This document shows positions 324 to 38,629 of a stretch of 38,629 nucleotides of DNA, piece after piece. Under the pieces are notes generated by a model, which saw only the letters and a program-made list of their open reading frames with translations, did not search any database and was not told the origin of the DNA. Source of the DNA: a virus; IMG/VR virus record IMGVR_UViG_3300027759_000194, positions 1-38,629 of that record; one strand, 5' to 3'. Position 1 is the stretch's first letter; each line of letters opens with the position of its first letter. The translations under genes were made by a program, and so were the position numbers.

Positions 324-334
324 ATCTCGACTAT

Positions 335-475: not shown

Positions 476-653
476 AAAGTACTATATCGCAGTAATCAAT
501 CAAGACCTTCATACTAAACAATGGAGCAAAATTAAGAAACTATTGAAAGCAACTGATTCTTGTTATTGTGTTTTTTACTCAAATGTAAAAGAATTTGAAT
601 TCAATCAAGTTACACAAAATGTGTACCACGAAATGTGTTATCAAGAAAACTAG
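393..653 (+). CDS. Unknown protein, 86 aa, with an N-terminus altered by an upstream indel
   Basis: From about residue 29 (KYYIAVINQ) to the end it matches the 67-residue protein at 30167-30370. The first 28 residues have no counterpart there: they come from reading the 335-475 gene in another frame, because this copy lacks the roughly 450 bases that carry the HAD-phosphatase gene in the second copy. The start is therefore uncertain; ATG at 393 or 414 would both work. The conserved part has an aromatic/Cys segment (YCVFYS) and ends a few bases before the small terminase. Function unknown. Confidence 0.5.
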   Translation: MHTSLNRMSDKYNYYIKHLTTFKVSKDRKYYIAVINQDLHTKQWSKIKKLLKATDSCYCVFYSNVKEFEFNQVTQNVYHEMCYQEN

Positions 654-666
654 AAAAATACGAATA

Positions 667-2215: not shown

Positions 2216-2234
2216 AACACGAACAAAAAATTAA

Positions 2235-2242
2235 CCATTATA
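2235..2242 (+). promoter_or_regulatory. CCATTATA start-site motif, four bases before the ATG
   Basis: CCATTATA followed by AGAT and the ATG at 2247. The same octamer at the same spacing precedes the genes at 8712, 13029 and 15582 and the second copies at 31964 and 38494. It is either a translation-initiation element or a late promoter giving nearly leaderless mRNA; the sequence alone does not decide. Confidence 0.55.
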
Positions 2243-2246
2243 AGAT

Positions 2247-6600: not shown

Positions 6601-8508
6601 CTTGGAGCAATAACACCTAGTGGATACTACGGGGCATTTCAGGATAATACTATACAAACTGCTGCTGCAATTAATACGCCTTATGCAATGAGATTTGGTA
6701 TTACTGATTTAAGTAACACGATAACAATTGTAAGTGATGGAAGTTATTTGACAAGAATAACAATTGCTAATACTGGCGTTTATAATATTCAATTTTCAGC
6801 ACAATTTGATAGAACAAATAGTGGCACTGATACTGTAGATATTTGGTTAAGAAAAAATGGAGTAGATGTTCCTGGAAGTGGTGGTAAAATAGTTTTAACA
6901 GGAGGAGTAATAGCATCTGCAATAATAGCAGCTTGGAACTATGTATTAGATGTAGTTGCAGGAGATTATTATCAAATAATGTGGAGTACACCAGATACTC
7001 ACGTTAGACTACTTTATGAAGCTGCGCAGACTACTCCATTTGCCCATCCATTAATACCATCCACTATATTAACTGTAACACAACAAGCAGGTATAATGGC
7101 AGGAACTGGGATAACAGCCTTAAATGGATTAAGTGCAGATGTTCAACTTTTATCAGTTGGAACAAGTGGAACAGATTTCAATATTTCATCATCAACTAAT
7201 ACACACACATTCAATCTACCAACTGCGAGCGCAACAAATAGGGGTGCATTAAGCTCGGCAAATTGGTCAACATTTAATGGTAAACAAAATCAAATAACAT
7301 TAACAACAACTGGAACTGGTGCTGCTACATTTGTATCAGACGTCTTAAATATTCCTACTCCTTCGAGTGGTGGTGGAAGTGGTATATTCGGTATATCAAA
7401 TTCAAGTGGTGTTTATACTTACTATGCTACATTAACCTTAGCAATGGCAGCTGCTTCAAGTGGTCAAACTATTGAAATGTTTGCAGATGTTACGGAAACG
7501 GGAGCTGTTTCAATTAATTTAAAAAATGGGGTTAATATAAATGGTAACGGTCATACATATACTTTAAATAATACAGGAACAACAAATTGTATTCAAGATA
7601 ATGGGGTTTCTTTGTATTGTGAATTATTTAATATTAAGTTTAAAAGAATGGGAGCGGCGACACCAAGTGCCACAGCTTCACTACCATTATATGTTACAAA
7701 TGCTGCGACTCAAATCATAAATAATGGCGTTAGTTTTGAGTCAACATTTAGTTTAGCAGCTGCGATTAGTGGAAAAGTAACGGGAGGATATTTTAGAGGA
7801 GAATTATCAGCTAATTTATCCTTAAATGTTTCATCGGGTGGAATTTTAACAAATGCGGATTTTTATTCAGCAGTTGGCTATGCTAATATTGCTGGCACGG
7901 CGGTTAATTGCTCATTTAGAAGTAACGGTAGTTACGCAGTAAATAGTGGTACTACTGCTAGATTAATTAATTGTACTGGATATTCAACCTCTAGTTATGG
8001 GATTTTTGGGAATGGTTATTTATTTAATTGCGTAGGTTATTCAACTGCAGGCTCTGGAATTTTTACATCTGATACAAATACTGTTCTTATGAATTGTTCG
8101 GGATATTCAAGTGCTGTTTGTGGGATACAAGGTATAGGTAACTTTATAAATTCAGTTGGAGAGTCTACAGCAAATGCGGGTATATTTGGGGCTTCAATAA
8201 TTAATTGTACTGCTAAAAGTTCAGGCGCAAAAGCTGCTTGGGTTTCAGTTAAAATGTATAATTCAAGTTCAATTTGTACTTGGAATAATGCAAGCGGTCA
8301 TTCGGTTGAATTACAAGCTAATAATACAGAAATTGTCGAATGTGTTTTACAAGTTACAAATGCTTCTGCAAATTCAATATATAGTGGTACTGCTTATGCT
8401 TGCAAATATGCAAATAATGCGTTTAAAGGAGCAACTACTTCTATTAATGCAAACATAACACAAGGCATGATAAATGTTCACGATTTACAAGGAAATATAA
8501 TAATTTAA
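3661..8508 (+). CDS. Giant tail/fibre protein with beta-helix tip, 1615 aa
   Basis: The N-terminal 700 or so residues look like a tail-anchoring structural part. Residues about 898-975 form a small beta domain (from SFVDSDYLVN to a TGSNWVII end), and about 988-1127 resemble a C1q/TNF-like jelly roll often seen in tail fibres. Residues about 1190-1209 carry the fibre linker NRGALSSANWSTFNGK. After a SSGGG linker near residue 1239 comes a 376-residue tip that reads as a right-handed beta-helix, with recurring NCxGYS...GI rungs at about 1440-1540. It should bind, and possibly degrade, the host surface glycan. No catalytic residues can be assigned. The tip is replaced by an unrelated one in the second copy (33378). 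Confidence 0.9.
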   Translation: MYNVRIQLATGYLDVKEDTAFPLNFGVADIRDVSKRAGAFSKTITLVGNKNNHDLLNHYYDVNIVAGTFDINALTKCTVVQNGIPILADAFVQLLSVNKIQKDTSFEQDIEYSVLIKDQASTFFTDIDTKELRDIDYSDLNHAINSANIYSSFTHDVTDGYKYGLTWMTGNLYNLSDFRPAIYAKVYFDRIFQNAGYNYDWSSLAACGFDKLLIPYNGDLVTIDYSNYTVEATHAADIVSIVQTPYTAGFTEPLTGFVEIVDTQALFNPATGVYTCAFPLSGAECVNVGIDIVGDVQLVNATAGDLRLLNTFFSYTSLPKQRYYLEIRVFRSAVAAYPISTYSIPYDIMTDGINSAPFAPGTTTIISLNNSYIIPVSNVLAGEQLTFEIGLRIENSNTSLHWVDNAVVDAIMTPQLNYTSLKLSANISSNTLSVGTLLNMNQFVPDKIKQKDFVKSIFQMFNLYVEIDTNNANTLILKTRDDFYDSGVEKDWTYKLAKDKEQILNFLPELASKKLILTYKQDKDTPNVTYYDTTREIYGQVEYVFDNEYVKGIDTKELIFSPSPIGQTIFGAYVPIVAGSSPKTNLRILYDGGMKSCSQYTIIDSGSAGLYGILEYPLMHHYDDALNPTLDINFALCDFMFYDDYTPTDNNLYNSYWRRTISQINTGKMLIAYFNLKEDDIQKLKLNDKIRIDNSWWSINKIIDYDANNKQLTKVELLSTDSEIDFAPFITKKPIKPHGGFSAVYTGVNQTITDNSNTVGIGADAYIKGKNNIIMPNVKCIIEGDGFVVSEDGIYRGNDNINTINDNYANADLTFDDNRNHSTNGFDLIESTDGGNLLQSYRKMTPSNSEYGFEGYKTKYDSTKVQFYADNNLISELVKTGFIHKSSVTYPQAVKTANYSFVDSDYLVNCTANSFNVTLPTAVGRQGKTYVVKNSGTGTISFLASGGQLIDGAASWSLSQYDYFVVQSTGSNWVIISSNTLGAITPSGYYGAFQDNTIQTAAAINTPYAMRFGITDLSNTITIVSDGSYLTRITIANTGVYNIQFSAQFDRTNSGTDTVDIWLRKNGVDVPGSGGKIVLTGGVIASAIIAAWNYVLDVVAGDYYQIMWSTPDTHVRLLYEAAQTTPFAHPLIPSTILTVTQQAGIMAGTGITALNGLSADVQLLSVGTSGTDFNISSSTNTHTFNLPTASATNRGALSSANWSTFNGKQNQITLTTTGTGAATFVSDVLNIPTPSSGGGSGIFGISNSSGVYTYYATLTLAMAAASSGQTIEMFADVTETGAVSINLKNGVNINGNGHTYTLNNTGTTNCIQDNGVSLYCELFNIKFKRMGAATPSATASLPLYVTNAATQIINNGVSFESTFSLAAAISGKVTGGYFRGELSANLSLNVSSGGILTNADFYSAVGYANIAGTAVNCSFRSNGSYAVNSGTTARLINCTGYSTSSYGIFGNGYLFNCVGYSTAGSGIFTSDTNTVLMNCSGYSSAVCGIQGIGNFINSVGESTANAGIFGASIINCTAKSSGAKAAWVSVKMYNSSSICTWNNASGHSVELQANNTEIVECVLQVTNASANSIYSGTAYACKYANNAFKGATTSINANITQGMINVHDLQGNIII

Positions 8509-8670
8509 ATAATATGGAAAATTTACAACAAATAGTAGTACAATTAACTACTGCACCATTTGAAAGAGCATTGGCACAATACGGAACTGATTTTATGCCA
8601 CAAGAGCAAAAAGAAGTGATTTACTCAGATTTAACAACTGAAGAAAAAGTCATATTTGATTCTTTTGTTG
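7377..8670 (+). other. Exchangeable fibre-tip cassette, beta-helix version
   Basis: This segment has no similarity to the corresponding segment 37094-38452. The left junction lies inside codons for a Gly-rich linker (GGTGGTGG) and the right junction lies within the last codons of the small gene at 8514. The cassette therefore carries a fibre tip and a small partner gene as one exchangeable unit. Confidence 0.8.
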
Positions 8671-8696
8671 AAATGATTAAAACACAACTTCAATAA
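8514..8696 (+). CDS. Small fibre-associated protein, 60 aa
   Basis: Starts five bases after the fibre gene and is replaced together with the fibre tip in the second copy, so it probably belongs to the beta-helix tip as an assembly partner or chaperone (inference from linkage). The sequence is acidic and helical, with no cysteine and no signal peptide. The last five codons (KTQLQ) and stop survive as a non-coding remnant at 38461-38478 in the other variant. Family not recognised. Confidence 0.6.
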   Translation: MENLQQIVVQLTTAPFERALAQYGTDFMPQEQKEVIYSDLTTEEKVIFDSFVEMIKTQLQ

Positions 8697-8699
8697 TCA

Positions 8700-8707
8700 C
8701 CATTATA
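8700..8707 (+). promoter_or_regulatory. CCATTATA start-site motif before the tape measure gene
   Basis: CCATTATA, then TAAT, then the ATG at 8712. The whole block is kept in the second copy at 38482-38489 although everything just upstream is exchanged. Confidence 0.55.
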
Positions 8708-8711
8708 TAAT

Positions 8712-10832
8712 ATGGCAGCATCACCGATTGAGATTCCTATTAAACTAAATGGCTTAGCAGCAATTAAAGCAGAACTTCGTGAACTGAAAGGTGACCTTGC
8801 AAATGCAACAGACCCTAAACAGATGCAGGAACTTGCTATGAGAGCAGGTGAACTGAAAGACCAACTTGCAGATGCTAATGAACAAGTAGCAGTATTCGCA
8901 TCGGGCAGTAAGTTTGAGCAGGTGTCGAATTCATTCGGTAGTATGAAAGATTCTTTGATGTCATTGGACTTTGAAGAAGCTGCAGGAAAAGCGAAGATGT
9001 TTCAGCAAACATTAGGAAGTATATCACCTGCAACGATTGGCAATGGTATTAAAGGGTTAGTTTCGGTTGTCGGTAGTTTATCTAAAGCCTTCATTCAGTT
9101 TGGTATTTCATTATTAGCGAATCCTATCTTTTTATTAGTTGCTGCGATTGTAGCCATTGTCGCAGTCATTGCTTTAGTAATGAATAAACTTGGAATCTTA
9201 AAGCCAATTCTTAATGCAGTAGGTAAAGTATTTGGTTGGATTGGTGATGCGATTGATATGGTTGTTCAAGCCTTCAAAGATTTGTGCGATTGGTTAGGCT
9301 TATCTAATAACGCAGCAGAAGATGCAGCAGATGCACAAGCAGCAGCAGCCGAGAAAACTGCAGCAGCATACGAAGAAAAGAGTGCAGCAGTAGTAGCAGG
9401 TTTCGATAGAGAGATTGAAATGGCTAAACTTGATGGTCAGAATACTGTTTATATGGAAAAGCAAAAACAGTACTGGCTTTTAAAAACTGCAGCTGCAAGA
9501 CTAGAAGCAATTAAACAGAAAATGATTGCTGCAAGATTGAGTGGTGATTTAGATGAAGAAGAGATTTTAGCTTTAAGAAAATCATATAACGAGCAAAGAG
9601 AAGTAGTCAAAGATTCTATGCATCAGATAGAAGTGATTGATAAGACTGAAGCTAATCGTAAAAAGGAAGATGCTAAAAAACAATCAGATGAAAGTTCTAA
9701 AAATGCTAAATCTAATGCAGATAAACAAAAAGAAATTAATGCTAAAAAGATTGAAGCAGAAAAGAAATACCAAGCAGATAGATTAGCAGCAGCAAGAATG
9801 TATCAGGACTTGGATATTCAGTTAATGGATGAAGGAGTAAAGAAAGAATTACTCGTTTCAAAACTTGCGTATCAGAGGCTCATTGAAGATACACAAGCTA
9901 AGGTTGCTACAACGAAACAAGAACAAGAAGAAAAGTTAAAGCTAATTGAGATGTATGGTCTTTTAGCAGGTGATGCAAGAGATAAGATAAATCAAAAAGA
10001 AGCTGAAAAAGAAAAAGAAAAGAATGCAGCAATAGCAGCTAAACAATTAGAGCAGCAGGATTTACTTTGGGCAATGAAAGAAGCAGCGAATCAAACTGCT
10101 AAAGAAAAAGAAGTAGCTGATTTATTAACAAAGAGTGAAGCAGATTTATTAGCTTTAGGAAGTAGTGCAGAAGCTGAATTATTTGTTGCTGAAGAAACTA
10201 AAAAGAAACTTGCTGAGATTGATGCTAAGTATGCAGATGCTGAAAAAGCAAATCATTTTAAACTATTAAGTGAGAAAGCAGATATTGCTTCTAAGTATGC
10301 ACAAAGTGTAAACTCTTTAGCTGAAGGAATGTTTGCAGTATCTAATAGCTACGGTAAACAAGATGAGAAATCAAAAGAAGAAAGAGCAAAGAGACAGTTC
10401 TACATTCAAAAAGCTATGAATCTAGGAATGGCTACAATAGATGGATATAAAGCAATTACTTCTTTCTTGTCAACAAATTCATTAACTGTTTTAGGTTTGC
10501 CAAATCCTGGTGCAATCGCAGGGCTTGTTGCTACTTCAGCAATGGCTGCAGGTAATATCTTAAAGATTGCTTCTGCGAGATATGGTGGTAAAGGAACACC
10601 AACTACAACTGCACCACCAACAACAGTAGGAGGAGGAGCAGGTGATACTTCTACACAAGCAGCTACTCCTAACGTTAATCTATTTGGAGCAAACAACAAC
10701 GCAAATACATTTGGTGCAAATGGTCAACAACAACAAGGTGGTCAAATGATAGTTAAAGCAGTAGTAGTAGAATCAGATATCACTTCTGTGCAAAACAAGA
10801 TGAGTAAAATTCAACAATCAGCAGTACTATGA
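8712..10832 (+). CDS. Tail tape measure protein, 706 aa
   Basis: A long, mostly alpha-helical, Ala/Lys/Glu-rich protein with a hydrophobic segment at about residues 127-162 (ISLLANPIFLLVAAIVAIVA), heptad-rich coiled coil through about 200-600, and a Gly/Thr/Gln-rich C-terminus near 630-680. This architecture is that of a tape measure protein, which sets tail length and enters the cell envelope on infection. At about 0.15 nm per residue it predicts a tail of roughly 100 nm (rule-of-thumb inference). It overlaps the next gene by four bases. The start follows the CCATTATA motif. Confidence 0.9.
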   Translation: MAASPIEIPIKLNGLAAIKAELRELKGDLANATDPKQMQELAMRAGELKDQLADANEQVAVFASGSKFEQVSNSFGSMKDSLMSLDFEEAAGKAKMFQQTLGSISPATIGNGIKGLVSVVGSLSKAFIQFGISLLANPIFLLVAAIVAIVAVIALVMNKLGILKPILNAVGKVFGWIGDAIDMVVQAFKDLCDWLGLSNNAAEDAADAQAAAAEKTAAAYEEKSAAVVAGFDREIEMAKLDGQNTVYMEKQKQYWLLKTAAARLEAIKQKMIAARLSGDLDEEEILALRKSYNEQREVVKDSMHQIEVIDKTEANRKKEDAKKQSDESSKNAKSNADKQKEINAKKIEAEKKYQADRLAAARMYQDLDIQLMDEGVKKELLVSKLAYQRLIEDTQAKVATTKQEQEEKLKLIEMYGLLAGDARDKINQKEAEKEKEKNAAIAAKQLEQQDLLWAMKEAANQTAKEKEVADLLTKSEADLLALGSSAEAELFVAEETKKKLAEIDAKYADAEKANHFKLLSEKADIASKYAQSVNSLAEGMFAVSNSYGKQDEKSKEERAKRQFYIQKAMNLGMATIDGYKAITSFLSTNSLTVLGLPNPGAIAGLVATSAMAAGNILKIASARYGGKGTPTTTAPPTTVGGGAGDTSTQAATPNVNLFGANNNANTFGANGQQQQGGQMIVKAVVVESDITSVQNKMSKIQQSAVL

Positions 10833-20469: not shown

Positions 20470-20533
20470 GTTAAAATTTTTGTTTTGTTTAGGTTTGGAT
20501 TGAATGAGGAGGTGTAATAGCCTCCTTTTTTTT
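20470..20533 (+). ncRNA. Putative small RNA A (or a promoter-proximal terminated leader)
   Basis: From the expected start about five bases after the -7 box, a transcript of about 64 bases would run to a rho-independent terminator: AGGAGG and CCTCCT around TGTAATAG, then eight T. There is no reading frame of note. It may equally be only the terminator of the metallophosphoesterase gene, with a fortuitous promoter box upstream. Confidence 0.4.
20507..20533 (+). terminator. Rho-independent terminator after the metallophosphoesterase gene / RNA A
   Basis: A six-base GC-rich stem with an eight-base loop and eight T. The hairpin GGAGGTGTAAxAGCCTCC recurs almost exactly at 24014-24031. Confidence 0.8.
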
Positions 20534-20540
20534 GTGCCTA

Positions 20541-20560
20541 AAGTGCAGTATAGTACACTT
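20541..20560. promoter_or_regulatory. Operator-like palindrome 1
   Basis: AAGTGCAGTATAGTACACTT is a 20-base palindrome with two mismatched pairs. Its core AAGTGCAGTATAGTA recurs at 20602. No regulator can be assigned from the sequence. Confidence 0.55.
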
Positions 20561-20601
20561 GTGAAGGAGAAAAACACTTAATAAACGTAATAAACACTTA
20601 A

Positions 20602-20621
20602 AAGTGCAGTATAGTATACTT
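20602..20621. promoter_or_regulatory. Operator-like palindrome 2
   Basis: AAGTGCAGTATAGTATACTT shares 19 of 20 positions with palindrome 1, 61 bases downstream. Between the two sites, TAAACACTTAA-type half-sites occur at about 20573 and 20592, so the block has about six AAGTG/CACTT half-sites. Confidence 0.55.
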
Positions 20622-20683
20622 TTAGCAGTATTAAATACATCTATAGTAGAAAATATTTGTATTCAATAAACGTTAATTATAAC

Positions 20684-24013: not shown

Positions 24014-24040
24014 GGAGGTGTAAAAGCCTCCTTAATTTTT
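24014..24040 (+). terminator. Terminator after the recombination genes
   Basis: GGAGG and CCTCC pair around TGTAAAAG, then TTAATTTTTT. The 18-base hairpin differs by one loop base from the one at 20508-20525. The T-run is interrupted, so termination may be partial. Confidence 0.65.
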
Positions 24041-24318: not shown

Positions 24319-24511
24319 AGTATTTTACACAAGAGAAAACCAACCTGCTTACTGGATAGGTAAAGCTAATTCTAAAGAAGATGCGATATTAAAAGCTGAT
24401 GTATTACCATCTTTAATATACGATGTATGGCTACTAGATGAATGGATGGATGAATGCGATTCAAGAAGAGGAATATTCATAGATAAAGATTTGAATATTA
24501 AGAATATTTAG
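24308..24511 (+). CDS. Early protein of unknown function, 67 aa
   Basis: A small alpha/beta protein with YYKVFYTRENQPAYWIGKA, acidic-aromatic middle (VWLLDEWMDECDS) and a short C-terminus. Its last codons overlap the putative promoter of RNA B. Function unknown. Confidence 0.6.
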   Translation: MYYKVFYTRENQPAYWIGKANSKEDAILKADVLPSLIYDVWLLDEWMDECDSRRGIFIDKDLNIKNI

Positions 24512-24522
24512 TTATATTTGCA
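24492..24522 (+). promoter_or_regulatory. Promoter of putative small RNA B, Bacteroidetes type
   Basis: TTTG at 24492-24495 and TATATTTG at 24515-24522, exactly 19 bases apart, the same geometry as the early promoter at 20797-20826. Confidence 0.7.
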
Positions 24523-24527
24523 TATAT

Positions 24528-24608
24528 TCTCGTGCAGGGGATTCAAAAGATTTAGTTTAAGCTCTTATCTGATAGGTCTGCACACCTTGACGATAGGAGC
24601 TTTTTTAT
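24528..24608 (+). ncRNA. Putative structured small RNA B with pseudoknot-like pairing
   Basis: About 80 bases from the predicted start to a terminator. Stem 1: GTGCAG (24534-24539) pairs perfectly with CTGCAC (24580-24585). Stem 2: AAGCTCTTATC (24561-24571) pairs with GATAGGAGCTT (24594-24604), one G-U pair, followed by six T. The strands interleave, so both stems together form an H-type pseudoknot; otherwise they compete. It may be a stand-alone small RNA or a leader controlling the gene at 24647. No frame of note inside. Confidence 0.6.
24561..24608 (+). terminator. Terminator hairpin of RNA B
   Basis: An 11-base stem with a 22-base loop that contains the CTGCAC strand of stem 1, followed by TTTTTT. 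The large loop is unusual for a simple terminator. Confidence 0.65.
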
Positions 24609-24646
24609 TTAATGGTTACTCGTAATCCTAAAACGTTTATTATATT

Positions 24647-24859
24647 ATGGCAAATGTAAAATTATTGTTCTACGGAACTAAACAATCAGGAACACAAGAA
24701 ATTTCAATTGAATGTTTTCACAATTCATATAATGAAATTACAATCAAAATTGATGAGGGCAGAGATTTTCCGCTTTCATTTATATCTTTGGATAAAGAAA
24801 CAGCTATTAAGTTGTCAAAGGAATTACGTAAACAAATAGCTACAATCGATTTATTATGA
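24647..24859 (+). CDS. Early protein of unknown function, 70 aa
   Basis: A small beta-rich protein (ANVKLLFYGTKQSG, EITIKIDEGRDFPLSFISL) with a C-terminal helix AIKLSKELRKQIA. Follows RNA B and starts the replication gene block, overlapping the next gene by four bases. Function unknown. Confidence 0.6.
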   Translation: MANVKLLFYGTKQSGTQEISIECFHNSYNEITIKIDEGRDFPLSFISLDKETAIKLSKELRKQIATIDLL

Positions 24860-29221: not shown

Positions 29222-29378
29222 ATGGATAGCATTAAGCACTTTTGTTTTATCTATTGGAATGACTGTAGCAATATGGAATGATTACGAATACACAAACAAG
29301 TTTGTTGCTGCTGCGATTCTTAGTCACATAATATTTTTATTAATAAACGAATATGAGAAAAATGCAAATAAAGGATGA
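29214..29378 (+). CDS. Small membrane protein, 54 aa (complete copy)
   Basis: MSRWIALSTFVLSIGMTVAI and KFVAAAILSHIIFLLI give two hydrophobic segments. It overlaps the sigma-like gene by eight bases and the following gene by 26. This is the complete homologue of the fragment at the window's start. Function unknown; no lysis genes are near. Confidence 0.6.
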   Translation: MSRWIALSTFVLSIGMTVAIWNDYEYTNKFVAAAILSHIIFLLINEYEKNANKG

Positions 29379-29589
29379 ATATAAAGGCAAGACTGTCATT
29401 GTGTATAATAGTGTCTTAGGGAATCAGAATGTAATAATTGATAAAATACTACCAAAGGATTACGATTGGTATTCAAGAAACGGATTAGGTCACATCTTTG
29501 AAGCTGAAGGAACAATTGTTTGGAGTGATGAATTGACGGAAGAAGAAGTAGTTCCAGTAGTGAAAAAAACACGAACTAAGAAGAAGTGA
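29353..29589 (+). CDS. Unknown conserved protein, 78 aa, second copy
   Basis: The homologue of 87-323. The first 45 residues are nearly the same and the basic Lys/Arg tail is identical, but residues 50-60 change from VQATIKPTF to AEGTIVWSD. Same overlap with the membrane gene upstream. Confidence 0.7.
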   Translation: MRKMQIKDEYKGKTVIVYNSVLGNQNVIIDKILPKDYDWYSRNGLGHIFEAEGTIVWSDELTEEEVVPVVKKTRTKKK

Positions 29590-29600
29590 ATCTCGACTAT

Positions 29601-29744
29601 ATGATAGCATCAGTCAAAGAATACATATTCCAACAGAAAGGAATATACATAGAGATAGATGCAAACTTCATTAAATCGGATGTAAGACAGATTCAACTAC
29701 TTTATCAAGCATATAACTTTATACAAAATGCCAATACCAAATAA
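29601..29744 (+). CDS. Small conserved protein, 47 aa, second copy
   Basis: The homologue of 335-475. Conservation of frame with mostly synonymous or mild changes supports coding. Here its end overlaps the HAD-phosphatase gene by 17 bases. Confidence 0.6.
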   Translation: MIASVKEYIFQQKGIYIEIDANFIKSDVRQIQLLYQAYNFIQNANTK

Positions 29745-30189
29745 AGGAGAACATAAAATAGAGTATCTTCAAAGATGTATGTCTGATGAAGAAACCAAAT
29801 CTAAATATCCTGATGAATCTCAAAGATTCGCAGTATGTAATTCTCTATGGTATGAAGATAAGATGTCAGCTTTGACAAAGTATAAAGATTCATTTGCTAC
29901 TAAAAAGATTAGTTTTGATTATGATGGTGTATTAAGTACATCGAAAGGAACTGAACTAGCAAAACGTTTAAAAGACGAAGGAAACACTATCTACATTATT
30001 TCAGCAAGAGGAAGCAAAGATAATATGCTATCTAGAGTAGAAAGCATTGGAATACCAACTTCAAGAATATATGCTACTGGAAGCAATAAAGCGAAAGTAG
30101 AGAAGATTAAAGAACTAGGTATAGATATTCATTATGATAATAATCCTGATGTAATAAAAGAATTAGATGGAATTGGAAAACTTTTCTGA
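29728..30189 (+). CDS. HAD-superfamily phosphatase fused to an N-terminal Cys-rich motif, 153 aa
   Basis: Residues about 1-44 have the pattern PIPNKGEHKIEYLQRCMSD...RFAVCNSLW, a short motif otherwise found in phage head-associated proteins. Residues about 60-150 are a HAD phosphatase: FDYDGVLS with Asp64 and Asp66, Ser in YIISARGS, Lys in NKAKVEKI, and a final HYDNNPDV acidic motif. It could dephosphorylate nucleotides or DNA ends. It is absent from the first copy, where only the flanks remain. It overlaps the genes on both sides, so its insertion or loss reshaped both borders. Confidence 0.78.
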   Translation: MPIPNKGEHKIEYLQRCMSDEETKSKYPDESQRFAVCNSLWYEDKMSALTKYKDSFATKKISFDYDGVLSTSKGTELAKRLKDEGNTIYIISARGSKDNMLSRVESIGIPTSRIYATGSNKAKVEKIKELGIDIHYDNNPDVIKELDGIGKLF

Positions 30190-30370
30190 AAAGAAATATT
30201 ATATAGCAGTAATCAATCAAGAATTACATTCTAAGCAATGGAGTAAGTTAAAGAAATGTTTAAAAGCAACTGATTCTTCTTATTGTGTTTTTTACTCAGA
30301 TGTGAAGGAATTGGAATTCAATCAAGTTACACAAAATGTGTACCACGAAATGTGTTATTTAGAAAACTAG
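30167..30370 (+). CDS. Unknown protein, 67 aa, second copy of the 393-653 gene
   Basis: Begins MELENFSEKKYYIAVINQEL, with ATG inside the end of the HAD-phosphatase gene. From KYYIAV on it parallels the first copy. This short N-terminus is more likely the ancestral one than the 28-residue extension in the first copy. Confidence 0.6.
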   Translation: MELENFSEKKYYIAVINQELHSKQWSKLKKCLKATDSSYCVFYSDVKELEFNQVTQNVYHEMCYLEN

Positions 30371-30383
30371 AAAAATACGAATA

Positions 30384-30800
30384 ATGGCAAAACATAAGTA
30401 TATAGAAACACCTGAGAAACTATACGAACTATTCCAAGAGTATAAGACAAGCATAAAGCCAAGAGAGATACAGAAAGCAACTGCAACAGGAGTAAAGTCT
30501 GAGTTTCATACACCACCGTTTACAATGGAAGGATTTGAGAACTTTTGCTTTATAAATTATAGCACAATAAATCATTACTTTGATAATCCTGAAGGAGCAT
30601 ATGACGCATATCGTACTATCTGTTCACATATAAAGAAAGTCATTCGTCAAGACCAAATCGAAGGAGGTATGGTTGGGCAATTCAATCCAAGTATTACACA
30701 ACGATTAAATTCATTAACTGAAAAAACGGATGTGACATCTCAAGGTGAAAAGATAAACGAAATCAAAGTCACTATTATAAGTGGAAATCAAAGCAACTAA
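30384..30800 (+). CDS. Terminase small subunit (probable), second copy
   Basis: 138 residues, homologous to 667-1083. The N-terminal 10, the block KPREIQKATATGVKSEFHTP, and the last 45 residues are nearly unchanged. Residues 55-85 differ strongly (FCFINYSTINHYFDNPEGAY instead of YCEDNICFVHQYFVNQNEAY). The variable part could reflect different packaging-site preference (inference). Confidence 0.8.
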   Translation: MAKHKYIETPEKLYELFQEYKTSIKPREIQKATATGVKSEFHTPPFTMEGFENFCFINYSTINHYFDNPEGAYDAYRTICSHIKKVIRQDQIEGGMVGQFNPSITQRLNSLTEKTDVTSQGEKINEIKVTIISGNQSN

Positions 30801-31932
30801 AATCTTTGAGCAGAATTATACTGCCTTATCTGATTCATCTACACGATTCATAATCAATCAAGGTGGCTCACGTTCAAGTAAGACCTATTCACTTTGTCAG
30901 GTTATAATCGTCTACTGCCTTCAGAATCCAAACAAGGTAGTATCAATAGTTAGGAAGACGTTCCCTGCTTTAAGAGCAACTGTGATGCGTGACTTCTTTG
31001 AGATAATGAAAGACTTAGAAATCTATGAGGTGACGAGCCATAATAAGAGTGAGAATATATATCGGTTTGGCAATGGCTCTATCGTTGAATTCTTCTCAGT
31101 AGATGACGAGCAGAAGATAAGAGGTCGTAAACGTGATATAGGTTGGTGTAATGAAGCCAATGAACTTTGGTTTGAAGACTTCCAACAGTTGAATATGAGA
31201 ACTGAGAATACAATGATATTCGACTATAATCCTTCCGATAGTTCAAGTTGGTTATACGAACTGCCTGAAGAAGAAAGCATACTAATAAAATCTACATATA
31301 AAGATAATCCATTCCTACCTGATTCAATCAAGCGACAGATAGAAGACCTTAAACGAACAGACGAAGCATTGTATCAAATCTATGCATTAGGTGAGAAGAC
31401 AACAAGCAAAACAAACATATATAGTAATTGGCAATTTGTCAAAGAAAGACCTGCTAGGTTTGAATCATTTTGCTATGGACTTGACTTTGGGTACAATCAC
31501 CCAACTGCATTGATGAAGGTGTGGTGGAATGAAAAAGACATCTTTGTTGAATCAGTAATCTATGAATCATATCTAACGACTACGATGCTGATAGAGAGAA
31601 TGAATGAGATAGGAGTGGATAAGAATGCTGATATACTTGGTGACCATTCAAGACCCGAAATAATAGCAGAGATACAGATAGCAGGGTACAATATAAACAA
31701 CGCAACGAAAGGAGTGAAGAAAGGAATTGACAATGTGAAGACATTCGGTGTGATATGCCTTGACAATCCAAATCTTAAAAGAGAATACGAAAACTACAAA
31801 TGGAAGAAGGTAGGTGATAGTATTACAGATGAGCCTATCAAATTGTTTGACGATGCGATGGATGCAATCCAGTATGCAGGTCGATTCATAAAAGATAATT
31901 ACTACACAGATGATTCATACTTTAGTTTCTAA
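30781..31932 (+). CDS. Terminase large subunit, second copy
   Basis: 383 residues with the same Walker A (28-35), catalytic Glu125 and nuclease acidic residues (Asp235, Asp288, Asp357/358/361) as the gene at 1064. Only about four residues differ (Ala20Ser, Ala97Gly, Tyr248Trp, Leu to Ile near 325), while the DNA has many silent changes, so the copies have diverged under strong constraint. Confidence 0.97.
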   Translation: MEIKATKIFEQNYTALSDSSTRFIINQGGSRSSKTYSLCQVIIVYCLQNPNKVVSIVRKTFPALRATVMRDFFEIMKDLEIYEVTSHNKSENIYRFGNGSIVEFFSVDDEQKIRGRKRDIGWCNEANELWFEDFQQLNMRTENTMIFDYNPSDSSSWLYELPEEESILIKSTYKDNPFLPDSIKRQIEDLKRTDEALYQIYALGEKTTSKTNIYSNWQFVKERPARFESFCYGLDFGYNHPTALMKVWWNEKDIFVESVIYESYLTTTMLIERMNEIGVDKNADILGDHSRPEIIAEIQIAGYNINNATKGVKKGIDNVKTFGVICLDNPNLKREYENYKWKKVGDSITDEPIKLFDDAMDAIQYAGRFIKDNYYTDDSYFSF

Positions 31933-31951
31933 AACACGAATGAAATAAACA

Positions 31952-31959
31952 CCATTATA
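31952..31959 (+). promoter_or_regulatory. CCATTATA start-site motif, second copy
   Basis: CCATTATA, then AGAT, then ATG 31964. The octamer and spacing are unchanged from the first copy although bases just upstream differ. Confidence 0.55.
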
Positions 31960-31963
31960 AGAT

Positions 31964-33385
31964 ATGGCAATAACATCAATAGCAGCACCACAAGATTTTA
32001 CACCTGCGTATAATCCGATTAAGTTTATAGTAGATGGCACGAACAAGAATCTACTAGGTTACAAGTATATCTTTGACATCTATCCACAAGGTGGAGCAAC
32101 GAAGATAGCAGAGTATAGAGTGTTTCCTGAGTTCGGTACTGGATACGGTAGAATAGATATATCTAAATTACTTCAAACGAAAGTAAGTTATGATAGTGAG
32201 TTATACGGAACTGTTACCTATCCTGCTATCAATTCATTTTACAAATACGATGTGAAGATAGGCGAGGAGTATATTACTTCAATTACATATACTTCTTCAT
32301 TGTCTAATAACTCAGGTAACGTAAGAATAACTGCTACACATTCGTATGTAGTAGGTGACCAAGTTAGAATAAATCAAGCAGATGGTGGAGCAGCTAATCC
32401 AAACTTAGAAGGACTGTTTACCGTTTTGTCAATAGTTGGTACTACTTCTTTTACTGTAAACTCTCTTTGGTCTCAAGTAACAAATGCTGCGATAGATGGA
32501 ACGGTAAGCTACTCAGATAACAGAAAGACTATTACACCAAATATATTACTTGAAGAAAGAAAGATAGTGTTTAATGGTGCGAGGTCATTTTTAGAGTTTA
32601 TAAATTACGACCAAAGTGTCTATATCTTGAATAATGCTAGAGATTATCTTTTAACTGATATGCCACTAGAAGGATTCTATTCTACTTTATATCAAGACTT
32701 AATAATCAACTTTGGTAATGCCAATTCGATTACAGGCTTTGCTTATTTTGAGAATGACGGTGGTAACTTATTCAGTAAAGTAGTAGATGCAAATTCTTAT
32801 ATTGCAGGTGTACCAGTAGGAACAAATAACTTTGGTACTTTGACTTTGGTAAGTGGTGTAGGTAATCTTATAGAGACTAATACACAATACTATGACTTTT
32901 GGTATGCTAATAGTTTAGGCAATCAATGTTCAAGAAAATATCGTGTTAACATTGACTATCGATGCTTAATAGAAGATTACTCTTTATTGTTCTTAGATAG
33001 AATGGGAAGTTATGGAAGTTTTGCTTTTCAGTTGAGAGCATACGAAAAAGGCAATGTGCAGAAACAAGGATTCAATAGAGATATTCAAGGAAGTGTAGTG
33101 AGTCAAGAATGGGTGTATGCACCTGAAGCATTCGGACAAAACATCTATTCATCAAATGTTACTAAAACTTTAGACTTGAATACTAATTGGATGACAGAAG
33201 AGATGTCGATATACTTTGAGCAGTTGATTACTTCGCCATTAGTTTACATAAAATTGCCTAATAATATTTATGCAGCAGTTACAATAAATGAGAATTCGTT
33301 TGAAGTAAACAATCAAAGAAACAAGAAACTATTTAAGAAGTCAATAACAGTTACATACGCAAATCAAAATACTGTCAATGTATAA
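31964..33385 (+). CDS. Late structural protein, second copy, 473 aa
   Basis: Same length as 2247-3668. Scattered single differences; the concentrated change is at about residues 373-392 (RDIQGSVVSQEWVYAPEAFG here). From nucleotide 33197 to the end the two copies appear identical. Confidence 0.75.
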   Translation: MAITSIAAPQDFTPAYNPIKFIVDGTNKNLLGYKYIFDIYPQGGATKIAEYRVFPEFGTGYGRIDISKLLQTKVSYDSELYGTVTYPAINSFYKYDVKIGEEYITSITYTSSLSNNSGNVRITATHSYVVGDQVRINQADGGAANPNLEGLFTVLSIVGTTSFTVNSLWSQVTNAAIDGTVSYSDNRKTITPNILLEERKIVFNGARSFLEFINYDQSVYILNNARDYLLTDMPLEGFYSTLYQDLIINFGNANSITGFAYFENDGGNLFSKVVDANSYIAGVPVGTNNFGTLTLVSGVGNLIETNTQYYDFWYANSLGNQCSRKYRVNIDYRCLIEDYSLLFLDRMGSYGSFAFQLRAYEKGNVQKQGFNRDIQGSVVSQEWVYAPEAFGQNIYSSNVTKTLDLNTNWMTEEMSIYFEQLITSPLVYIKLPNNIYAAVTINENSFEVNNQRNKKLFKKSITVTYANQNTVNV

Positions 33386-36300
33386 CGTAAGAATACAACT
33401 AGCAACTGGATATTTAGATGTCAAAGAAGATACTGCTTTTCCTTTAAACTTTGGAGTAGCAGATATTCGTGATGTAAGCAAAAGAGCAGGAGCATTCTCT
33501 AAGACTATCACACTTGTAGGCAACAAGAATAACCACGACTTGCTTAACCACTACTACGATGTCAATATTGTAGCAGGAACATTCGACATCAATGCTTTGA
33601 CTAAATGTACTGTAGTTCAAAATGGCATTCCGATTCTTGCAGATGCGTTTGTTCAGTTGTTGTCAGTTAATAAGATTCAAAAGGATACTTCATTTGAACA
33701 AGACATTGAATATTCTGTATTGATTAAAGACCAAGCAAGTACATTCTTTACTGACATAGATACTAAAGAGTTAAGAGACATTGACTATTCGGATTTGAAT
33801 CACGCAATAAATTCAGCTAACATTTACTCTTCATTTACTCACGATGTAACTGACGGTTATAAATATGGCTTGACGTGGATGACTGGCAACTTGTATAATC
33901 TTTCTGATTTTAGACCTGCCATTTATGCAAAGGTTTATTTCGATAGAATCTTTCAGAATGCAGGATATAATTATGATTGGTCTTCTTTGGCTGCGTGTGG
34001 ATTTGACAAGCTACTTATTCCTTACAACGGTGATTTAGTTACGATTGATTATTCTAACTATACAGTTGAAGCAACTCACGCAGCAGATATTGTGAGTATA
34101 GTTCAAACACCATATACTGCAGGTTTCACAGAGCCTTTAACTGGATTTGTTGAAATAGTAGATACTCAAGCTTTATTCAATCCTGCTACTGGAGTATACA
34201 CTTGTGCTTTTCCGTTGTCAGGAGCAGAATGTGTTAATGTAGGAATTGACATAGTAGGAGATGTTCAACTTGTGAATGCTACTGCAGGAGATTTGCGTTT
34301 ATTAAATACTTTCTTTTCATATACATCACTGCCAAAACAAAGATACTATTTAGAAATAAGAGTATTCAGAAGTGCAGTCGCTGCTTATCCAATAAGTACT
34401 TATTCTATACCATATGACATTATGACTGATGGTATAAATTCTGCACCATTTGCACCAGGTACAACAACGATAATAAGTTTAAACAATAGCTATATTATTC
34501 CAGTCAGCAATGTATTAGCAGGGGAGCAATTAACGTTTGAGATAGGATTAAGAATTGAAAACTCTAACACTTCTTTACATTGGGTGGATAATGCAGTAGT
34601 AGATGCTATAATGACTCCTCAACTTAACTACACATCTTTAAAATTAAGTGCTAATATCTCATCTAATACTTTGTCGGTAGGTACACTTTTGAATATGAAT
34701 CAGTTTGTGCCTGATAAAATTAAGCAGAAAGATTTTGTCAAGTCAATATTTCAGATGTTTAATCTATATGTTGAGATAGATACGAATAACGCAAATACAC
34801 TTATACTAAAAACTAGAGATGACTTTTATGATAGTGGAGTTGAGAAAGATTGGACTTACAAACTAGCAAAAGACAAAGAGCAGATTCTAAACTTCTTGCC
34901 AGAACTAGCATCAAAGAAACTTATCTTAACATACAAGCAAGATAAAGATACACCTAACGTAACTTACTACGATACTACACGAGAAATATACGGTCAAGTG
35001 GAATATGTCTTTGACAACGAGTATGTGAAAGGAATAGATACAAAAGAATTAATCTTCTCACCTTCACCTATTGGTCAAACAATATTCGGTGCTTATGTTC
35101 CAATTGTTGCAGGTAGTTCGCCTAAGACTAATCTTCGTATATTATACGATGGTGGTATGAAATCGTGCAGTCAATATACAATTATAGATTCAGGCTCTGC
35201 AGGCTTGTACGGAATCTTAGAATATCCTTTGATGCATCACTATGACGATGCGTTGAATCCTACGTTAGACATAAACTTTGCTTTGTGCGATTTTATGTTC
35301 TACGATGACTACACACCAACCGATAACAATCTTTATAATTCATATTGGAGACGTACAATAAGCCAAATCAATACTGGCAAGATGTTGATTGCTTACTTCA
35401 ATTTGAAAGAAGATGACATTCAGAAGTTAAAGCTAAACGACAAGATTAGAATAGATAATTCTTGGTGGTCAATTAACAAAATTATAGACTACGATGCTAA
35501 TAATAAGCAACTGACAAAAGTTGAATTATTATCTACAGATAGTGAGATAGATTTCGCACCATTTATAACGAAGAAACCAATTAAACCACACGGTGGATTT
35601 AGTGCAGTTTATACAGGAGTAAATCAAACAATAACAGATAATAGCAATACTGTAGGAATAGGTGCAGATGCTTATATTAAAGGCAAGAATAACATAATAA
35701 TGCCGAACGTTAAATGTATAATTGAAGGAGATGGATTTGTTGTAAGTGAAGATGGAATATATAGAGGAAACGATAACATAAATACTATAAATGACAATTA
35801 CGCAAATGCTGATTTAACATTTGACGACAATCGTAACCATTCGACAAATGGATTTGATTTAATAGAGTCAACAGATGGTGGTAATCTTCTACAATCATAT
35901 AGAAAAATGACACCTTCAAATTCAGAATATGGATTTGAAGGATATAAAACAAAATATGATAGTACAAAAGTTCAATTTTATGCAGATAACAATCTAATAT
36001 CTGAACTTGTTAAAACTGGATTTATTCACAAGTCATCTGTGACATATCCACAAGCAGTTAAGACTGCTAATTATTCATTTGTTGACTCTGATTATTTAGT
36101 TAATTGTACTGCAAATTCATTCAATGTAACGTTACCAACTGCAGTAGGTAGACAAGGTAAGACGTATGTAGTTAAGAATAGTGGAACTGGTACTATTTCA
36201 TTCTTAGCAAGTGGTGGTCAATTGATAGATGGTGCTGCAAGTTGGTCTTTATCTCAATATGATTATTTTGTTGTACAATCAACGGGTTCAAATTGGGTTA

Positions 36301-38147
36301 TTATATCTTCTAATACACTTGGAGCAATAACACCTAGTGGATACTACGGGGCATTTCAGGATAATACTATACAAACTGCTGCTGCAATTAATACGCCTTA
36401 TGCAATGAGATTTGGTATTACTGATTTAAGTAACACGATAACAATTGTAAGTGATGGAAGTTATTTGACAAGAATAACAATTGCTAATACTGGCGTTTAT
36501 AATATTCAATTTTCAGCACAATTTGATAGAACAAATAGTGGCACTGATACTGTAGATATTTGGTTAAGAAAAAATGGAGTAGATGTTCCTGGAAGTGGTG
36601 GTAAAATAGTTTTAACAGGAGGAGTAATAGCATCTGCAATAATAGCAGCTTGGAACTATGTATTAGATGTAGTTGCAGGAGATTATTATCAAATAATGTG
36701 GAGCACACCAGATACTCACGTTAGACTACTTTATGAAGCTGCGCAGACTACTCCATTTACCCATCCATTAATACCATCCACTATATTAACTGTAACACAA
36801 CAAGCAGGTATAATGGCAGGAACTGGAATAACTGCCTTAAATGGATTAAGTGCAGATGTTCAACTTTTATCAGTTGGAACTAGTGGAACAGATTTCAATA
36901 TTTCATCAGCAACTAGTACACATACTTTCAATCTACCAACTGCGAGTGCAACAAATAGGGGTGCATTAAGTTCAGCCAATTGGAGCACGTTTAACGGTAA
37001 GCAGAATGCAATAACGTTAACAACAACTGGAACTGGTGCTGCAACATTTGTATCAGATGTTTTAAATATACCTACTCCATCAAGTGGTGGTGGTCTGACT
37101 ATTGGAACAACTGCTATTACTTCAGGAACAGTTGGAAGGATATTGTTTGAAGGTACTGGTAATTTACTACAAGAAGATTCTAATCTATTTTGGGACAATA
37201 CAAATAAACGTTTAGGAATCGGAGCAACCCCGGCAACAACTGTAAGACTTGACGTAAGAGCGCAAGGTGCTTTGTCTACTGATATTGCATTTAGAGTTAG
37301 GAATAGTGCTGATACGGCTAATATTTTAACTGTAAATGGAGATGGAACACAGAATTGGTTTGAACCTGCAAATAATACTTTAAGCTCGATAAAGTCAGGC
37401 ACTTACAATCTTATTCAATGGGGTAATAACAATTTTGGTAATGTAGCCGTTGGATATAGTAGTACTAATATGATTACACCTACTTTATCTTACTGTACAT
37501 TATTAGGTACATTTACTTCTGTTTTAGCATCAGGTGGAACTAGAGTGGGGAATGCAGGAGGAATAGGAGTAGGAGGAGATTATGGAATTGCTATTGGATA
37601 TGGAACAAATGTAAAAGGCAATAGTACTATACATATTGGTAGAAGAACGGGAGCAAGTTCAATGAGTGGATTAAATTCTATTCACTTAGGAAAAACTCCA
37701 TCAGGCAATGACATTGCACCTTCAAATGTATTTATGACACATTTTGACTCGGAAAACGCTTCAACACTTGCAAGGGGAAATGGTTCATTTGGTTTACTTG
37801 GTAAAACTGCATATATTTTAGGAGATGGTATTGGAACTTATGGAGTAGATAAGTTTATGGGTAATGGAGGCAATACGCTAGTTATAACAAATCATACATT
37901 AGTTCCTTCTACAAATATAGTAGATACTTTTCAAATGTATTCAAATGACATTATAGCAGGAAATGCAGCACCACACTTCAGAACTGAAAACGGAGGAATA
38001 ATTAAACTTTATCAAGAAACAACGGCAGTAGCAGCATCAACATTTGTTGTAGGAATAGGAACGGCAGTAACAGATGCAAGTACTTTTGATGGTTATACAT
38101 TAAAGCAGATAGTAAAGGCATTAAGAAATCAAGGATTATTAACATAA
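33378..38147 (+). CDS. Giant tail/fibre protein with YadA-like tip, 1589 aa
   Basis: Identical to the first copy over about the first 1100 residues, with a few differences to residue 1239, then a different 350-residue tip. The tip starts with the fibre motif LFWDNTNKRLGIG and LDVRAQGALSTDIAFRVRNS, includes a YadA-head-like AIGYGTNVKGNSTIHIG segment, and ends with the conserved trimer-end sequence YTLKQIVKALRNQGLLT. Compared with the beta-helix tip of the first copy this is a different receptor-binding head on the same shaft. Probably a trimer. Confidence 0.9.
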   Translation: MYNVRIQLATGYLDVKEDTAFPLNFGVADIRDVSKRAGAFSKTITLVGNKNNHDLLNHYYDVNIVAGTFDINALTKCTVVQNGIPILADAFVQLLSVNKIQKDTSFEQDIEYSVLIKDQASTFFTDIDTKELRDIDYSDLNHAINSANIYSSFTHDVTDGYKYGLTWMTGNLYNLSDFRPAIYAKVYFDRIFQNAGYNYDWSSLAACGFDKLLIPYNGDLVTIDYSNYTVEATHAADIVSIVQTPYTAGFTEPLTGFVEIVDTQALFNPATGVYTCAFPLSGAECVNVGIDIVGDVQLVNATAGDLRLLNTFFSYTSLPKQRYYLEIRVFRSAVAAYPISTYSIPYDIMTDGINSAPFAPGTTTIISLNNSYIIPVSNVLAGEQLTFEIGLRIENSNTSLHWVDNAVVDAIMTPQLNYTSLKLSANISSNTLSVGTLLNMNQFVPDKIKQKDFVKSIFQMFNLYVEIDTNNANTLILKTRDDFYDSGVEKDWTYKLAKDKEQILNFLPELASKKLILTYKQDKDTPNVTYYDTTREIYGQVEYVFDNEYVKGIDTKELIFSPSPIGQTIFGAYVPIVAGSSPKTNLRILYDGGMKSCSQYTIIDSGSAGLYGILEYPLMHHYDDALNPTLDINFALCDFMFYDDYTPTDNNLYNSYWRRTISQINTGKMLIAYFNLKEDDIQKLKLNDKIRIDNSWWSINKIIDYDANNKQLTKVELLSTDSEIDFAPFITKKPIKPHGGFSAVYTGVNQTITDNSNTVGIGADAYIKGKNNIIMPNVKCIIEGDGFVVSEDGIYRGNDNINTINDNYANADLTFDDNRNHSTNGFDLIESTDGGNLLQSYRKMTPSNSEYGFEGYKTKYDSTKVQFYADNNLISELVKTGFIHKSSVTYPQAVKTANYSFVDSDYLVNCTANSFNVTLPTAVGRQGKTYVVKNSGTGTISFLASGGQLIDGAASWSLSQYDYFVVQSTGSNWVIISSNTLGAITPSGYYGAFQDNTIQTAAAINTPYAMRFGITDLSNTITIVSDGSYLTRITIANTGVYNIQFSAQFDRTNSGTDTVDIWLRKNGVDVPGSGGKIVLTGGVIASAIIAAWNYVLDVVAGDYYQIMWSTPDTHVRLLYEAAQTTPFTHPLIPSTILTVTQQAGIMAGTGITALNGLSADVQLLSVGTSGTDFNISSATSTHTFNLPTASATNRGALSSANWSTFNGKQNAITLTTTGTGAATFVSDVLNIPTPSSGGGLTIGTTAITSGTVGRILFEGTGNLLQEDSNLFWDNTNKRLGIGATPATTVRLDVRAQGALSTDIAFRVRNSADTANILTVNGDGTQNWFEPANNTLSSIKSGTYNLIQWGNNNFGNVAVGYSSTNMITPTLSYCTLLGTFTSVLASGGTRVGNAGGIGVGGDYGIAIGYGTNVKGNSTIHIGRRTGASSMSGLNSIHLGKTPSGNDIAPSNVFMTHFDSENASTLARGNGSFGLLGKTAYILGDGIGTYGVDKFMGNGGNTLVITNHTLVPSTNIVDTFQMYSNDIIAGNAAPHFRTENGGIIKLYQETTAVAASTFVVGIGTAVTDASTFDGYTLKQIVKALRNQGLLT

Positions 38148-38452
38148 AAAATAAATATGGCGATTTTAATAAAAGCAAACAAAAAAAAGAGTATTACAAT
38201 TTCAGGTACTGAGTTGAATTTAGAAAGCATCTATGCACGACTAGAATTCGCTGCGAGAGCAGATGGTAAAACGTTAGAAATTGCAGTAGCTACATACGCA
38301 AGTAGAACTACTTTTGAAAGTAATCAACCTATCTTTACAGATGTTCAGCAAGGCACATTCACAGTTGAGATATTACCAACTGAGATGCAAGACTTGAAAT
38401 CGGCTAATAAATACGCTAGTTTAGCATTCGAGCAACTTGGTTATTCAACTGA
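37094..38452 (+). other. Exchangeable fibre-tip cassette, YadA-like version
   Basis: Alternative to 7377-8670. It carries the fibre tip and a 101-residue partner gene. The left edge is in Gly codons; the right edge lies next to short shared sequence (GAAAT-ATT-AAAACAC with a mismatch and an indel) that leads into the tape measure leader. Confidence 0.8.
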
Positions 38453-38462
38453 AATCATTTAA
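38157..38462 (+). CDS. Fibre-associated protein, 101 aa
   Basis: Unrelated to the 60-residue gene at the same place in the first copy. It begins MAILIKANKKKSITISGTEL and contains LEFAARADGKTLEIAVATYA and EQLGYSTEII at the C-terminus. Linked to the YadA-like tip, so probably an assembly partner or baseplate cap for it (inference). Start follows an A-rich leader nine bases after the fibre stop. Confidence 0.65.
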   Translation: MAILIKANKKKSITISGTELNLESIYARLEFAARADGKTLEIAVATYASRTTFESNQPIFTDVQQGTFTVEILPTEMQDLKSANKYASLAFEQLGYSTEII

Positions 38463-38478
38463 AACACAACTTCAATAA
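38461..38478 (+). pseudogene. 18-base relic of the 60-aa gene
   Basis: AAAACACAACTTCAATAA is identical to 8679-8696, where it encodes the last codons and stop of the gene at 8514. Here it overlaps the stop codon of the 101-residue gene and is otherwise untranslated. It suggests that this variant once carried the other partner gene, or that both variants use this block as a recombination boundary. Confidence 0.6.
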
Positions 38479-38481
38479 TCA

Positions 38482-38489
38482 CCATTATA
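38482..38489 (+). promoter_or_regulatory. CCATTATA start-site motif before the tape measure, second copy
   Basis: CCATTATA, then TAAT, then ATG 38494; the whole block is identical to 8700-8714 despite the exchange immediately upstream. Confidence 0.55.
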
Positions 38490-38493
38490 TAAT

Positions 38494-38629
38494 ATGGCAG
38501 CATCACCGATTGAGATTCCTATTAAACTAAATGGCTTAGCAGCAATTAAAGCAGAACTTCGTGAACTGAAAGGTGACCTTGCTAATGCAACAGACCCTAA
38601 GCAGATGCAGGAACTTGCTATGAGAGCAG
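38494..38629 (+). CDS. Tape measure protein, partial, cut by the window end
   Basis: The first 45 codons of the homologue of 8712-10832; the amino acid sequence visible is identical to the first copy with two silent changes. The rest lies beyond the window. Confidence 0.85.
   Translation, partial: MAASPIEIPIKLNGLAAIKAELRELKGDLANATDPKQMQELAMRA

Follow-up and report, generated by a model that had tools for sequence, protein, structure and literature searches.

In lambda P'R-tR' (6S RNA) and in operon attenuators, a promoter is followed by a short RNA, an intrinsic terminator and then co-oriented genes. The put RNA of HK022 consists of nearly adjacent hairpins and carries no terminator at its end. 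Complementary loops are used by phi29 pRNA, a part of the packaging motor, to multimerise, and ColE1 RNAI/RNAII and the P4 CI RNA are antisense systems that kiss through their loops. The phage RNAs GOLLD and ROOL oligomerise via kissing loops, and their intermolecular contacts covary (PMC12286853). In this study, we analysed a viral DNA stretch of 38,629 nucleotides (IMG/VR record IMGVR_UViG_3300027759_000194; hereafter the window) that holds a kissing-hairpin element, in which a promoter is followed by a P1 hairpin, an A/U-rich linker and a terminator hairpin composed of P2 and P3 (Table 1).

Table 1. Predicted features of the kissing-hairpin element and the adjoining gene in the window.
Feature	Position	Strand	Description
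Promoter, Bacteroidota type	24490..24520	+	TTTG 24490-24493, 19-nt spacer, TATATTTG 24513-24520
RNA element	24521..24606	+	predicted start ~24524-24527, end at the U-tract, ~80-85 nt
P1, 5' hairpin	24528..24541	+	TCTC/GGGA around the 6-nt loop GTGCAG; in the minimum-energy fold
P1, alternative form	24526-24542	+	ATTCTC/GGGGAT, 5-nt loop
K, kissing helix 5' strand (GTGCAG)	24532..24537	+	P1 loop
A/U-rich linker	24542..24558	+	contains the motif AAAAGATTTAGTTT
P2 5' strand AAGCTCTTATC, base of the terminator hairpin	24559..24569	+	pairs with GATAGGAGCTT 24592-24602
Internal loop, 5' side (UGAU)	24570..24573	+	faces UGAC 24588-24591; tandem G-A pairs possible
P3 5' strand (AGGT)	24574..24577	+	pairs with ACCT 24584-24587
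K', kissing helix 3' strand (CTGCAC)	24578..24583	+	P3 loop
P3 3' strand, internal loop 3' side and P2 3' strand	24584..24602	+	P2 3' strand is GATAGGAGCTT 24592-24602
U-tract (TTTTTT), intrinsic terminator	24601..24606	+	
Downstream 70-aa ORF	24647..24859	+	starts 46 nt past the U-tract start; first gene ahead of the DnaD-like and helicase genes

The original prediction had placed a promoter, a perfectly complementary pair GTGCAG/CTGCAC and a terminator at this site, and all three are found exactly so; the predicted intrinsic terminator has a G+C-containing P2 stem of 10-11 bp with TTTTTT directly after it. P1 and P2 are both present in the minimum-energy fold, which leaves the complementary strands K and K' as facing loops. 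GTGCAG had rightly been located near the 5' end of the RNA, but it had been missed that GTGCAG is the loop of a hairpin of its own, P1, so that the contact is one between two loops. Likewise, CTGCAC does lie in the terminator hairpin, but the 22-base loop said to hold it is not open, as P3 and the UGAU/UGAC internal loop lie inside it. A single G, which either closes P1 or ends the kissing helix, is the sole point of competition among P1, P2, P3 and the loop-loop helix. The proposed pseudoknot is therefore sound, with all helices compatible, and the proposed switch between exclusive stems has to be given up, since the stems can form together with the kissing helix. The window element is thus best described, as a predicted fold, as a kissing-hairpin pseudoknot and not as a pair of exclusive folds. 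The claim that there is no reading frame is correct in that no ORF is conserved, but the window does have an open frame from a TTG inside the promoter; the homologue L102 reads TTGTGA where this frame begins.

Taken alone, the window is unconvincing. The promoter motif has 8 matches in it against 2.3 expected, the fold of the element gives z = -2.3, shuffled sequence scores equal to or better than the window in a structural descriptor scan, and a 6-nt match is unremarkable by itself. The comparative evidence, in contrast, is convincing. We gathered 134 viral loci via the downstream 70-aa protein and the helicase gene, and most loci that are long enough share the layout of the window with different letters. 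According to our reading of the alignments and scans, from which the class names and consensus strings are taken, the elements fall into four classes, A-D. Class B, to which the window belongs, has fully paired 6-nt loops. In class A, the P1 loop reads NNTYNNAC-AWTATA and the terminator loop AA-GTNNRANN, and the kissing helix has 8 bp; in class C, the two loops read CNNNRGA-AA and AA-TCYNNNGC. In class D, P1 holds AA-GTNNRANN and the terminator holds NNTYNNAC with an A-rich flank, so that, in the predicted fold, the two loop types of class A have changed places in class D. The kissing helix is 6-8 bp long across the family. With regard to a ligand-binding core such as riboswitches have, the conserved unpaired parts are the short loop flanks and the linker, which carries a similar motif (about AAAGRAATTTWRTT) in all classes and is ~11-26 nt long in nearly all members. 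The internal loop is swapped for different modules between classes (UGAA/GGAU or AGUA/GAA in the others). A T-run of at least 5 forms the U-tract in 64 of 77 relatives and T4 in another 11 of the 77, and several class D members have an interrupted U-tract (UUUUACUUUUU-like).

The pairing is kept pair by pair in the alignments, where covariation cells count sequences and not independent events. In the 10 distinct class B sequences, each of the 24 pairs is intact throughout (100% of cells paired), 10 of them are changed on both sides, and the covariation is 0.407 compared with 0.171 in shuffled alignments. These changes are spread over the helices: both sides are changed in 3 of the 4 pairs of P1 and in 4 of the 10 counted pairs of P2, all 10 of which are kept, and P3 turns from AGGT/ACCT into AGGA/TCCT in relatives. 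All 6 pairs of the class B kissing helix are kept and 2 are compensatory (GTGCAG/CTGCAC, GGGCAG/CTGCCC, GTGCCG/CGGCAC). The class A alignment A2 comprises 19 distinct sequences. Of its cells, 89.7% are paired; 21 of 28 pairs are changed on both sides and the covariation reaches 0.637 against 0.232 (sd 0.019) in shuffles. Pairing in its kissing helix reaches 99.3%, and both partners vary in 6 of the 8 pairs. Near relatives also differ at the kissing strands, as in phages morran9-1 (GTGAGAAG/CTTCTCAC) and tooticki6-1 (GTGAGACG/CGTCTCAC). Since the four classes and these near relatives agree, the compensatory change must have been repeated.

An independent scan of viral contigs gave the same picture. 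Its pattern described P1 only and left four kissing positions free and one half-free. Among the matches listed, a perfect 8-nt partner was present in 76 of the 82 distinct sequences that were long enough, compared with 2 of 6314 swapped combinations, and it always lay 57-64 nt downstream of K; these counts are a lower bound, and the family has further members beyond those listed. By our reading, five of the failures (L139, L144, L149, L154 and L164) are unrelated sequence and the sixth (L257) has a G-U pair. The pattern matches listed hold 27 K sequences, most of them true elements. In the corresponding scans, the partner was found in 13 of 19 class C matches and in 8 of 11 class D matches, compared with 0 of 284 and 0 of 102 swapped combinations, respectively. 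The class C matches without it arose by chance or come from a cut contig, and those of class D arose by chance. An earlier test on the regions upstream of the 70-aa gene, with a crude 3' cut, had found at least 8 complementary nt in 27 of 47 regions and in 2.8% of swapped ones.

The loops are therefore complementary hairpin loops whose complementarity is maintained by compensatory changes. The original prediction had staked itself on such changes in relatives, and they are present in several classes; the observation behind it is real and stronger than first stated. In the relatives, P2 contains 125 G-U pairs and 0 A-C mismatches, a count that the optimised P2 register favours, whereas optimisation of P2 on the other strand yields 6 such wobbles and a lower score. 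The presence of G-U and absence of A-C in P2 argue for a plus-strand RNA. Because the loops remain complementary while their letters change, we regard the predicted kissing-hairpin RNA as a real, previously uncatalogued family. At the level of sequence comparison, what is established is the structure of this RNA including the kissing helix, its strand, its promoter box, its terminator-type 3' end and its position.

The element is found in well over a hundred phage sequences, and the identified carriers infect flavobacteria. Flavobacterium phages morran9-1, tooticki6-1 and hattifnatt9-1 and Cellulophaga phage phi18:3 are the named ones; most other members are uncultured viral contigs. These named phages were reached through the downstream protein and not through the element sequence. 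BLASTN of the window element or of a class A element against named phages returned almost nothing, because the sequence of the element drifts. The class A model R1 finds the element in 40 of the 47 records searched whole, in single copy except for one record with two. This model is not broad enough to cover class B, as it misses the window element and gives L102 only 27 bits. In 84,980 bacterial and archaeal genomes, the class A P1 pattern with the promoter box has one match, L139, where the partner strand is absent, and a search of genome contigs with the 70-aa alignment gave no confirmed relative. In Maribacter phage Panino (L265 9793-9957), a terminator-like hairpin lies between the SSB gene and the gene preceding the replication initiation protein; it has no R1 match and may be a distant relative of the family.

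The impression that the RNA resembles no named family agrees with Rfam 15, which has 0 matches to the whole window at the gathering threshold and 0 to the window element at E<=10. A class A element gives only chance matches at E<=10, and 15 related loci contain just tRNA and DUF805b, both away from the element. The DUF805b RNA (RF02914) is in Flavobacterium phage morran9-1 (L002 1548-1582; 52.1 bits against a threshold of 35.6). Our literature searches for the kissing-hairpin RNA found no description of it, and the words RNA, promoter and terminator are absent from the main text of the paper that presented the Flavobacterium isolates (PMC7077304). Thus, the terminator, the kissing loops and the leader position are each known; their combination and the RNA family are new with respect to Rfam and the searchable papers.

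The surroundings of the element are conserved in kind. Of 77 independent relatives, 69 carry a TANNTTTG box no more than 60 nt upstream of P1. As P1 starts 4-7 nt past this box in 66 of the 69 box-bearing elements, it would coincide with or adjoin the predicted transcription start. The upstream portion of the promoter is shared less widely, since TTG at the -33 spacing is present in only 32 of the 77. Of 139 elements listed, 135 are followed by a co-oriented ORF that begins 2-61 nt past the start of the U-tract (approximated as P1 + 75 nt for elements from the pattern scan), compared with 70 of 239 other terminators at the same loci. Between K' and the next ORF, a box was found in 0 of 76 cases, with only the TANNTTTG-type box scored. 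The element is therefore 5' of, and co-oriented with, genes without a TANNTTTG box of their own in the gap. It is positioned between a recombination module (Erf, exonuclease) and a replication module (DnaD-like, helicase). The next gene itself varies (the 70-aa family, DUF6291, Phg_2220_C, Prim-Pol, helicase, MT-A70 methylase or endonuclease VII), the most frequent kind being a replication-module gene (DUF6291/Phg_2220_C, Prim-Pol, helicase).

Phages that share the upstream gene and promoter, with 36-44 identical nt, can differ in the RNA class and in the next gene. Six loci (L012, L013, L014, L015, L022 and L053) are identical to the window up to the promoter and then continue with other RNA classes and genes, and comparison of these loci with the window puts the presumptive recombination breakpoints in or next to the promoter. 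The record with two copies (G030, L263) has its second one elsewhere in the genome with a promoter box of its own, where K (GGTCTGA) pairs with TCAGACC; the gene after it is short, Cys-rich and, by our reading, endonuclease-like. Because this second copy precedes another gene elsewhere, it suggests that the RNA unit travels with genes.

Between the U-tract and the 70-aa gene of the window lies a conserved box, GGTTACTCGTAATCCTAAAACGTTTA (24614-24639), which accompanies the 70-aa gene family. It forms a small hairpin whose closing pair is C-G, G-C or T-A, and it is possibly a binding site for the 70-aa protein. The model of this protein (24647-24859; pLDDT 92) has four strands and one helix and resembles PUR-alpha repeats (Z 6.7, which is middling; rmsd 1.9 over 58 residues) as well as Whirly/PC4-like folds that bind single-stranded nucleic acid. 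Elsewhere in the window, two near-identical imperfect palindromes at 20540-20625 (AAAGTGCAGTATAGTACACTTGTG and AAAAGTGCAGTATAGTATACTTTTAG), both of which happen to contain GTGCAG, are possibly operators, and two other terminators (20506-20527 and 24014-24031) share GGAGGTGTAA(A/T)AGCCTCC. The ends of the window, 1-8847 and 29267-38629, repeat the same region with 95.5% identity across 6907 bases and 91.2% across another 468. The contig therefore appears to combine two variants of the same phage region and not to be a clean single genome.

For the function of the element we favour, at a probability of about one half, a transcription attenuator that releases a short stable RNA over an RNA that acts in trans. 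Polymerases that start at the promoter of the element, or arrive from upstream, would mostly stop at the U-tract and release a compact ~85-nt RNA closed by hairpins at both ends. A minority would continue into the replication genes, for which the gap provides no separate promoter box. How well or how quickly the terminator hairpin closes, and hence the level of read-through, might be set by the kissing helix, and this level could be shifted by a phage or host factor able to bind or disrupt the kissing complex. The attenuator is supported by the closeness of a co-oriented downstream ORF, the lack of a TANNTTTG box in between, the frequent replication genes downstream and the usual single copy per record, and also because the single second copy precedes a gene too and has its own promoter box. 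Several points weigh against it. The downstream gene varies, so that no single regulated product explains the conservation, and some members have a short or interrupted U-tract. Hairpins at both ends of the transcript would also fit a stable trans-acting RNA, and the kissing could be intermolecular. Close downstream ORFs are partly expected, as early phage genes are dense and co-oriented. By inspection of the linker against the 5' strand of P2 for an alternative antiterminator, AAAGG/CCUUU occurs in some members only and none is conserved. More tentatively, the element may represent a new class of phage control RNA whose nascent first hairpin docks onto its own terminator loop. The result would be a rigid kissing module, largely free in its sequence and able to be turned round between the hairpins, that would set the expression of the following gene and travel between phages with that gene.

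The strongest competitor of the attenuator, which we consider possible but doubtful, is a trans-acting small RNA. The terminated 85-nt RNA would bind a host or phage protein through its linker and loop flanks and act as a decoy, in counter-defence or as a regulator; its position would only set its timing. This would account for a usually single-copy RNA that is closed by hairpins at both ends, with P1 at the predicted start, and that stays in place while the next gene changes; the kissing sequences vary freely as if shape alone counted, and the linker motif is alike across classes. It is harder to reconcile with an element that is nearly always directly followed by a co-oriented ORF lacking a promoter box of its own; the second copy in G030 precedes a gene as well, and a weak or broken U-tract in some members would be odd for a small-RNA gene. 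K has no target within the phage's own locus, and the antisense RNA once suggested is not borne out either: K or its complement occurs elsewhere in the fetched loci, each up to ~15 kb, 3 times against 5.4 expected.

Alternatively, the loops may pair between molecules, so that dimers, chains or rings are the active form as in phi29 pRNA. Complementary loops within one molecule allow this, and the covarying intermolecular contacts of GOLLD and ROOL are a precedent (PMC12286853). We regard it as improbable, as the tight K-K' spacing (57-64 nt, class A) and linkers of ~11-26 nt suit an intramolecular contact, the second hairpin is a terminator, and the location is the replication module and not the packaging genes. 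A transcript that primes or opens a phage origin adjoining the replication genes would fit the consistent position between the recombination and replication modules, and yet is about as improbable: the GC skew has no turn at 24.5 kb, the second copy is elsewhere before the endonuclease-like gene, and the strong terminator hairpin disfavours a persistent RNA-DNA hybrid. Finally, an ordinary terminator whose loop matches upstream sequence by chance could be entertained for the unremarkable 6-nt match of the window, but it is refuted by the swapped controls in three classes (A, C and D), beside the pair-by-pair covariation in class B, and is almost certainly wrong.

Our results add a widespread and strongly supported RNA family to the phages of flavobacteria, in which small RNAs and attenuation have been little studied. 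Its study can draw on a model, four structural classes and phages that can be cultured for testing (morran9-1, tooticki6-1, hattifnatt9-1 and phi18:3). In addition, the exchange of loops between classes A and D can serve as a natural experiment on the interplay of the kissing complex and the terminator hairpin.

Among known systems, ColE1 RNAI/RNAII and the P4 CI RNA share with the element a kissing loop sequence that varies among relatives. In the element, unlike in these systems, both loops are in one transcript, and no second complementary sequence is nearby beyond chance. Like phi29 pRNA, GOLLD and ROOL (PMC12286853), it is a phage RNA whose complementary loops keep pairing as the sequence changes. 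However, it is much smaller, lies beside replication genes, has a built-in terminator and most likely pairs intramolecularly. HK022 put RNA resembles it in that a phage early transcript opens with two hairpins and each operon has one such RNA. The element departs from put in its linker of ~11-26 nt, in a second hairpin that is a terminator with a U-tract and in loop complementarity as its conserved feature, and it is not a put RNA. As in lambda P'R-tR' and operon attenuators, co-oriented genes without their own promoter in the gap lie downstream. In contrast to these, no leader peptide, tRNA/antisense partner or antiterminator protein is recognised in the element, which adds instead a covarying loop-loop helix that uses the terminator loop.
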